A stretch of DNA of 64,000 nucleotides, taken from the NCBI GenBank assembly GCA_944326725.1, contig CALVFA010000029.1, positions 1 through 64,000 of the forward strand, written 5' to 3'. The first letter of the stretch is position 1. Each line of letters starts with the position of its first letter. The translations under genes were made by a program, and so were the position numbers. The notes beneath the pieces were generated by a model. The model did no database searches. It saw nothing but the letters and a program-made list of their open reading frames with translations, and was not told where the DNA came from. This document shows positions 24,165-29,812 of the stretch, one piece after another. The DNA is from an uncultured Elusimicrobiales bacterium. Its GTDB lineage: Bacteria; Elusimicrobiota; Elusimicrobia; Elusimicrobiales; Elusimicrobiaceae.

Positions 24165-24192
24165 TTGACAATTTTTCAAACCCGCTTATAAT
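24165..24192 (+). promoter_or_regulatory. Perfect-consensus promoter of the unassigned RNA
   Basis: TTGACA at 24165-24170, a 16-bp spacer, and TATAAT at 24187-24192. It is the only promoter in the window with both hexamers perfect. The predicted start is near 24199. Confidence 0.85.
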
Positions 24193-24198
24193 ACTAGT

Positions 24199-24566
24199 GA
24201 GACAGTCCCAGGTTGGGTGCGTGGGGCAATGGTAACTGCGAAGGAAGGAATGCGGGTAGGAAAGCGGACTGACCGGATGCAGGGCTGTAACAACGAGCGG
24301 ATGTGAGAGCCGCTGTTACAGAGCGTATAAACAAGACGTTGCCGCTGGAGCCAGCGAAGAAGTGCTTGAAGTGGCGCGGTTTGGCGGCAGGGTAGTGTGA
24401 AGACGTAAGATGTTTCGCAGAGGTTGATGTAAATGGTTCGGCCTGAGCGGAGCATGCGGTTACCGGACGGAGCCTGTGGCAATAAGTCGCCCGGCCTGAC
24501 TTAAAAAGGAAGAGTGAATGAAAGAGTCGACGTGAACCCCCCGGTGGAATATCGGGGGGTCTTTTT
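24199..24566 (+). ncRNA. Structured RNA of about 370 nt, family not recognised
   Basis: A standalone transcript between a perfect promoter and a strong terminator, with no convincing ORF. Helices can be read by eye: CAGTCC/GGACTG enclosing the first 65 nt; CTGTAAC/GTTACAG (24285-24291 with 24315-24321), stacked on AGCGG/CCGCT (24296-24300 with 24310-24314); and TGCCGC/GCGGCA (24340-24345 with 24384-24389), enclosing GCTGG/CCAGC. Purine-rich single-stranded segments lie between. I looked for RNase P RNA, tmRNA, SRP RNA and group I/II intron hallmarks and found none. Size and promoter strength suggest an abundant RNA. Confidence 0.65.
24535..24566 (+). terminator. Terminator of the unassigned RNA
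   Basis: Stem ACCCCCCG/CGGGGGGT (24536-24543 with 24553-24560) with a 9-nt loop, followed by CTTTTT. Confidence 0.92.
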
Positions 24567-28750: not shown

Positions 28751-29812
28751 ATGAGCAATGTATCCATGAAGTCCATGTTGGAAGCGGGTGTGCACTTTGG
28801 ACACCAAACCTCCCGCTGGAACCCCAAAATGAGCCGTTTTATTTTCGGCGAACGCAACGGGGTGCATATCTTAGATTTACAGAAAACCGCCAAAGAACTG
28901 AAAAAAGCCTGCGCTTTTGTAAAAGAAGAAGCGAAGAAAGGTTCTAAATTTTTGTTCGTCGGCACGAAAAAGCAGGCCCAGGAAGCCATCGCTACCGAAG
29001 CGGCCCGCGCCGATGTGTATTGCATTCACGAAAAATGGCTGGGCGGCACGCTGACCAACTTCCAAACCGTCAAAAAATCCATTGAACGCATGAACGAGCT
29101 GGAAAAATGGGAAGCCTCCGGCGTATTCAAAGCCATTTCCAAAAAAGAAGCCAGCCGCTTGAGCAAAGAGCTCAACCGCTTGCAGAAATTGTTGGGCGGC
29201 ATCCGCGAGATGAAAGTATTGCCGGATGTGGTATTTGTCATTGACCCGGTGGATACCGCCGGCGCCGTGCGCGAATCCCATGTGTTGGGCATTCCTGTGG
29301 TAGCTGTCTGCGACACCAACTGCGACCCCGATTTGATTGACGTGCCCGTGCCGGGCAACGACGATGCGGCCCGCTCCATTAAACTGTTCTGCGCCGCCAT
29401 TGCCGATGCCGTGTTAGAAGGCCGCGCCGAAGCCGAAGCCGCCAAACAGCCGGCCCAGGCCGCCGCTGCCGAAGAAGGCGAAGCCGCCCCGGCCAACCCG
29501 GCCATGGCCCAAGCCTTTGAAAGCATTATGCTGGCCGGTGAAAAAGCCGAAGAAGCCAAAGCGGAAGAAGTAAAAGAAGAAGTAAAGGCCGAAGAAGTAA
29601 AAGAAGAAACCAAACCCGAAGCCCAAGCGGAAGAAGTAAAAGAAGAAGCCGCCCCGGCTGAAGAAAAAAAGGCCAAAACCGCCAAAAAAACCACGGCTAA
29701 AAAACCCGCCGCCAAAAAAACCACGGCTAAGAAAACCACGGCTAAAAAAGCCGTAAAAGCCGAAGAAAAAGCAGAAGAAGCCAAAGAAGAAGCCGCTTCT
29801 GAAGCCAAATAA
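28751..29812 (+). CDS. rpsB: Ribosomal protein uS2 with a long charged C-terminal tail
   Basis: A small-subunit protein. Residues 1-230 are a standard S2: [61 protein letters not shown]. Residues 230-353 are an extension absent from most S2 proteins. It has an Ala-rich part, an acidic KAEE/VKEE stretch (265-305), a basic block of TAKK repeats (about 307-335), and a final acidic stretch. Its gene is followed by tsf, the conserved order. Confidence 0.97.

Follow-up and report, generated by a model that had tools for sequence, protein, structure and literature searches.

A structured RNA locus with a consensus promoter

The window, meaning the whole 64,000-nucleotide stretch of DNA that was analysed, carries on its plus strand a promoter followed by a structured transcript and an intrinsic terminator. 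The promoter (24165..24192, +), identified by sequence scan and homologue comparison, comprises a -35 box TTGACA, a 16-bp spacer and a -10 box TATAAT. It had been described as the strongest promoter in the window and is the sole perfect 12/12 match to the sigma-70 consensus in the 64 kb, the runner-up scoring 11/12. The 5' end is readable in 39 homologues. The best promoter site in each of these has a 16-bp spacer and takes the form TTGAxx-16-TATACT/TATAAT, with one TTAAACT-like -10 variant at locus L116. From this promoter we infer that the RNA is strongly transcribed and abundant.

The transcript was placed at 24199..24566 (+), starting 6-7 nt past the -10 box and ending at the T tract, which gives an RNA of approximately 365 nt in the window. 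The intrinsic terminator consists of ACCCCCCGGTGGAATATCGGGGGGT followed by CTTTTT (24536..24566, +). Its stem of 11 pairs (24536-24560) begins directly after a stop codon and runs into the T residues, in agreement with the strong terminator that had been predicted. The original prediction also stated that the locus contains no ORF. An ORF scan found no plus-strand ORF of at least 60 amino acids within the transcript, and to that extent the statement stands; it does not hold for a conserved five-codon frame with a Shine-Dalgarno (SD) sequence that abuts the terminator. The sole long ORF, an antisense frame with a TTG start (24186-24482, minus strand), was rejected as a protein gene: it was matched in 4 of 40 loci, and conservation of the RNA explains it.

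The RNA matches no known family

A search of the window with Rfam 15 returned no family at or above its gathering score and only chance matches at E values up to 10. RNase P RNA and tmRNA are encoded separately in this genome, on contigs C49 (217 bits) and C27 (131 bits) respectively, and ARAGORN found no tmRNA, tRNA-like domain or CCA end in the RNA. These two known RNAs, whose hallmarks had not been seen in the sequence, are excluded by their presence elsewhere, and the suggestion of a highly diverged known RNA found no support. The OLE, ROOL, GOLLD and raiA motif (RF03072) classes likewise gave no Rfam match in the window, all four being assumed to be present in Rfam. The lack of Rfam similarity excludes a 6S-like RNA weakly, as no 6S RNA was found in the genus for comparison: the Rfam 6S model detected none in six genomes of the genus (G000, G068, G029, G014, G027 and G015) or in G091, from another Elusimicrobiaceae genus. 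This model misses 6S RNA in many phyla, making its silence in these genomes weak evidence, and the lineage may either lack 6S RNA or possess a diverged form. A cis-regulatory leader or riboswitch would precede, and point the same way as, the gene it controls, and this does not fit a downstream gene that is convergent in most genomes. The open-access literature yielded no paper joining Elusimicrobia with such RNAs, nor any family of structured RNAs in which a mini-ORF of fixed length is conserved.

The RNA is conserved within a single genus

A DNA search found relatives of the RNA in the same genus only. The homologous records bear such names as uncultured Elusimicrobium sp., Elusimicrobiales bacterium, Elusimicrobiaceae bacterium and Elusimicrobia bacterium UBA1436, and their source, where named, is usually the animal gut. 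A core pattern matched 27 of the 66 genomes of the genus; one extra match, L042 in G022, was rejected as unrelated. Alignment of the 3' module from 27 sequences (A1) was used to build a covariance model, R1, which gave one strong match in each of 56 of the 66 genus genomes (E <= 5e-8). An orthologue in G069, located by its position beside glyS, raises the total to 57. In other Elusimicrobiaceae genera and other genera of the phylum, R1 produced nothing above a background of approximately 30 bits; across the phylum the 3' model matched in one of 71 genera, with none in the 70 other genera sampled. In other genera of the family and order, the region following glyS yielded no equivalent RNA.

Most genomes of the genus retain the gene order glyQ-glyS-(0 to 2 genes)-RNA-small lipoprotein-lipA. 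Insertions between glyS and the RNA alter the spacing and leave the order unchanged, and this conserved order indicates that a single locus has been inherited vertically. In loci L100-L139, small genes, pilin-like ones among them (clusters c7, c8 and c10), often lie between glyS and the RNA. The small lipoprotein-like gene, of approximately 100-150 amino acids and with the motif CAGNPPxWWNP, is convergent to the RNA beside lipA in most genomes within the same set of loci, and may share the terminator region of the RNA. In the window, the neighbour of the RNA is a different minus-strand gene, again convergent, in place of the lipoprotein-lipA pair. The downstream gene is convergent in most genomes; which gene occupies this place varies, and the RNA persists.

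Ten genus genomes gave no R1 match. The copy in G069 is diverged and was missed by the model; in most of the others glyS is missing or the contig ends nearby, so clear loss is not shown in the R1-negative genomes. In G075 the RNA was not found in the 1,849 nt readable downstream of glyS. A search of the RNA's own genome with the core pattern, allowing up to three mismatches, returned only the locus itself; thus, no long complementarity to rRNA was seen. A mobile or phage element was rejected as the source: the core has no match in viral contigs, and each genome has one copy of the RNA, at a constant syntenic position. The RNA is fast-evolving and vertically inherited, and these syntenic orthologues in 57 of the 66 genomes make it almost certain that the locus encodes a real conserved RNA.

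A closing rod encloses a variable domain and a conserved core hairpin

The predicted fold of the RNA has a free energy of -139.4 kcal/mol against a mean of -117.1 for shuffled sequences (z -4.5), and none of 100 shuffles folded as well. The 5' end pairs with the segment preceding the SD to form a long closing rod. Its closing helix is formed by a 5' strand, CAGGTTGGGTG (24209..24219, +), and a 3' strand, CGCCCGGCCTG (24488..24498, +). Swapping closing-helix strands between species weakened the pairing: cognate strands gave a mean of -35.5 compared with -29.4 for permuted strands (z = -8.8), and none of 20,000 permutations did as well. Immediately before the 3' strand of the helix lies a conserved RUAARU element (24482..24487, +), on the 3' strand of the rod, where most homologues have a 5-nt RUAAR-type bulge. 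The rod encloses a variable branched domain and a core hairpin, GGUUGA-UGUANNUGGU-UCGGCC (24422..24443, +), which is the most conserved stretch of the family.

A subclade of 13 sequences (A3) has 147 consensus pairs, which are paired in 97.5% of cells. In this alignment 28 pairs are changed on both sides, compared with 10.2 in shuffles and no more than 8 in slid controls. Covariation analysis had been proposed as a check; compensatory change is seen here as well as in the closing helix, and it supports the structure. With conservation, synteny and no Rfam match, the compensatory change favours the view, raised at the outset, of a lineage-specific large RNA or new class.

From just past the -10 box to the terminator, the homologues span 220-541 nt, most of them measuring 345-541 nt with a branched insert. 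The family thus remains orthologous across this range of lengths and shows why sequence searches miss such families. Two minimal versions of 220-223 nt, L118 (4924-5146) and L124 (3685-3904), consist of no more than the rod, a single hairpin arm, the core hairpin, mini-ORF and terminator, and are the best targets for structure work. The RNA (24199-24566) is G-rich and C-poor, with 36.5% G and 18.3% C, and G exceeds C in 40 of 40 sequences with the homologues included. As the RNA is nevertheless highly paired, many G-U pairs are used; the composition could also help it to escape Rho.

A five-codon reading frame abuts the terminator

The elements 3' of the closing helix follow a set order: an open SD, an ATG, exactly four more codons, a stop codon and the terminator stem. 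In the window, the SD is AAGGAA (24506..24511, +), 6 nt upstream of the ATG of a mini-ORF with the sequence ATG AAA GAG TCG ACG TGA (24518..24535, +), which encodes MKEST and directly abuts the terminator. An SD is present in all homologues, at a distance of 3-8 nt from the ATG (mostly 5-7 nt), and the stop codon lies 0-2 nt from the terminator stem in all of them.

The mini-ORF was first noticed when about ten homologues were read side by side. All core-pattern matches found later in the genus conform to the five-codon frame; the search expression used for them demanded that frame, and every core match with a full 3' end passed. The 26 most divergent covariance-model matches were fetched after the idea had formed and were read without this filter. 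Among them, 24 carry a frame of exactly five codons, and the remaining two have frames of four and eight codons. When any length between 1 and 14 codons was accepted, tabulation yielded 58 rows, representing 56 loci. The frame has five codons in 56 rows and 54 loci, the two remaining loci having four and eight. The 58 rows hold 38 distinct ORF DNAs and 35 different peptides, which are uniformly hydrophilic and share no motif; the stop codon is TGA in 44 rows, TAA in 8 and TAG in 6. The last sense codon also varies (AAG, AAC, AAA, AGA, AGT, TGC and others). Searching with a pattern of SD, five-codon ORF and CCCC recovered this RNA within the genus; elsewhere in the order it gave no more than background.

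Five codons are not absolute. The mini-ORF of L123 has four codons (MSNS), and eight are found in a sister lineage comprising L114 (4735-5154) and L210 (G069:C146), in which the peptides differ (MSSCKIEQ and MGCCSGAV). The G069 copy resembles L114 at its 5' end, and mini-ORF length seems to be fixed within each lineage.

SD sequences are in general use in this organism, preceding 31 of the 47 ORFs in the window compared with 11% of random 17-mers. The region of the SD and mini-ORF has a predicted unpaired fraction of 0.59, compared with 0.35 upstream, and is the more open of the two in 36 of 37 homologues; some SD sites, for example in L119 and L138, are predicted to be partly paired. The length, start, stop and SD of the mini-ORF are conserved and its peptide is not. 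The strongest sign that ribosomes read the frame is the interchange of all three stop codons around an unconserved peptide, and on these comparative grounds the mini-ORF is very probably translated.

Relationship to orphan RNAs, dual-function RNAs and minigenes

The wider kinds of RNA that border this family, large orphan RNAs and dual-function RNAs, are already known. The family itself is new and confined to one genus, and its unusual feature is a conserved, apparently translated five-codon frame. It resembles OLE, ROOL, GOLLD and the raiA motif/ModT RNA, whose functions are unknown or recently found, in being large, folded, free-standing and, to judge from its promoter, strongly expressed. 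It differs from these four classes in having no match in the Rfam search, in diverging faster, in being restricted to one genus and in carrying a conserved SD and five-codon ORF, which we have not seen reported for them. The abundance of the raiA motif/ModT RNA rivals that of rRNA (PMC11706538). OLE, GOLLD and ROOL assemble into RNA-only complexes, and binding to ribosomes has been reported for GOLLD and to ribosomal protein S21 for OLE (PMC12286853; PMC12054373). By analogy, these ribosome links make a ribosome-directed function of the present RNA plausible, while proving nothing here.

tmRNA (SsrA), which acts on ribosomes, is likewise structured, comparable in size and equipped with a short frame that ends in a stop codon; the present RNA, by contrast, has no tRNA-like domain or CCA end, and its frame has its own SD and ATG. 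Dual-function sRNAs with small-protein genes, such as SgrS/SgrT, RNAIII/delta-haemolysin, SR1/SR1P and VcdRP, share the architecture of a structured regulatory part and an SD-driven ORF before a Rho-independent terminator on one transcript (see PMC8672173 and PMC8501984). They encode conserved proteins in ORFs of tens of codons, whereas here the SD, the ATG, the stop and the length of the five-codon frame are conserved and its product is not. The mini-ORF also recalls minigenes and drop-off ORFs, among them lambda bar, the rRNA E-peptide and the axe-txe minigene, which are few-codon frames with their own SD (see PMC8708949). Those are isolated cases inside mRNAs or rRNA; the present frame, by contrast, is a constant component of orthologous structured RNAs throughout the genus.

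Ribosome docking as a possible function

As the SD, the ATG, the frame length and some stop codon are kept while the peptide is not, initiation and termination by ribosomes at this site would appear to matter. We propose that the 3' end of the RNA recruits a ribosome, which would dock between the rod on its mRNA-exit side and the terminator hairpin on its mRNA-entry side. An initiating 70S ribosome extends to approximately position +15 counted from the ATG, and the stem of the terminator starts at about +19 to +21, so five codons may be approximately the shortest frame that admits a ribosome and spares the terminator. The stop codon would release elongating ribosomes, none of which would then run to the 3' end for rescue by tmRNA. 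The large 5' domain would thereby be presented to the ribosome, and would either modulate it or be protected and localised by it. We give a probability of roughly 50% to the explanation as a whole, namely a structured RNA that is specific to the genus and strongly transcribed, ends in a translated mini-ORF whose length is fixed, and docks a ribosome. That docking, over the alternatives below, is the purpose of the mini-ORF we put a little short of an even chance from the comparative data. It is the simplest reading, and one of several, of a frame in which translation seems to matter and the peptide does not.

The same 3' position would suit a role in stability or insulation. Ribosomes beside the terminator would then shield the RNA against RNases or set its rate of decay, and the 5' structured domain would account for the entire function, on the pattern of other large orphan RNAs. 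In favour of this reading, the ORF occupies an open linker at the very 3' end, a strongly conserved core lies within the structured domain and the peptide is unconserved; yet in most bacterial RNAs a terminator hairpin protects the 3' end without such an ORF, and simple protection does not need an ORF of near-invariant length. We regard this reading as unlikely, if worth keeping in mind. Quite improbable, in our estimate, is a minigene effect. The RNA would then be made in quantity, and repeated initiation and termination or peptidyl-tRNA drop-off on its five codons would sequester ribosomes, the initiator tRNA or particular tRNAs and so adjust translation capacity. Minigene translation is known to cause peptidyl-tRNA release (PMC3856088; PMC10192219), and the strong promoter, strong SD and very short ORF would fit. 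The varying last sense codon argues that no single tRNA is targeted, however, and the large conserved structured domain is left unexplained.

The RNA might instead serve to make the pentapeptide, which could for instance be a formylated signal peptide specific to each species, its translation being controlled by the structured domain in the manner of a riboswitch. Fixed length with rapid divergence would suit specificity, and the peptides are uniformly hydrophilic, but with 35 different peptides lacking a shared motif and eight residues in a sister group, with an SD predicted to be open and not switchable, and with glyS and lipA as neighbours and no exporter, protease or receptor gene linked, we regard this as very doubtful. 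We hold it highly improbable that the RNA is a much diverged 6S RNA, a regulator of RNA polymerase, with an added 3' tail: the closed rod, the smallest members of 220-223 nt and the failure of Rfam to find 6S RNA in six genus genomes or in G091 agree with it, whereas most members have 345-541 nt and a branched insert, a size and branching that do not fit the 6S rod of about 180-200 nt with its central bubble resembling an open promoter, no 6S similarity appears in Rfam at E values up to 10, and 6S RNA has no SD or mini-ORF. A leader (5' UTR or attenuator) of the downstream gene, which a structured RNA with a short ORF and a terminator superficially resembles, is contradicted by gene order, the next gene being convergent in most genomes including the window and the downstream neighbour varying while the RNA stays; we consider this almost certainly wrong.

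Somewhat more tentatively than docking itself, the RNA may represent a new class of bacterial RNA in which a mini-ORF fixed in length and independent of sequence is translated as a docking device, with the ribosome and not the peptide as the ligand. It would then be a stoichiometric ribosome-associated factor of one gut-bacterial clade, acting for example in hibernation, quality control or localisation. Bacterial RNAs are usually classed as coding or noncoding. Here the frame is strongly selected though its product is not, which implies translation itself as the function. The RNA offers a directly testable case of ribosomes being recruited by way of an ordinary start site. It is also a natural experiment on minimum ORF length, with five codons as the rule and four and eight as exceptions.

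No protein partner of the RNA was found. A separate observation in the window concerns rpsB (28751-29812, +), which encodes a ribosomal protein S2 of 353 amino acids with a Lys-, Ala- and Glu-rich C-terminal tail (EEVKEE...) that is unusually long, at approximately 110 residues. S2 lies near the mRNA exit side of the 30S subunit, so a link between this tail and a ribosome-docked RNA could be asked about.
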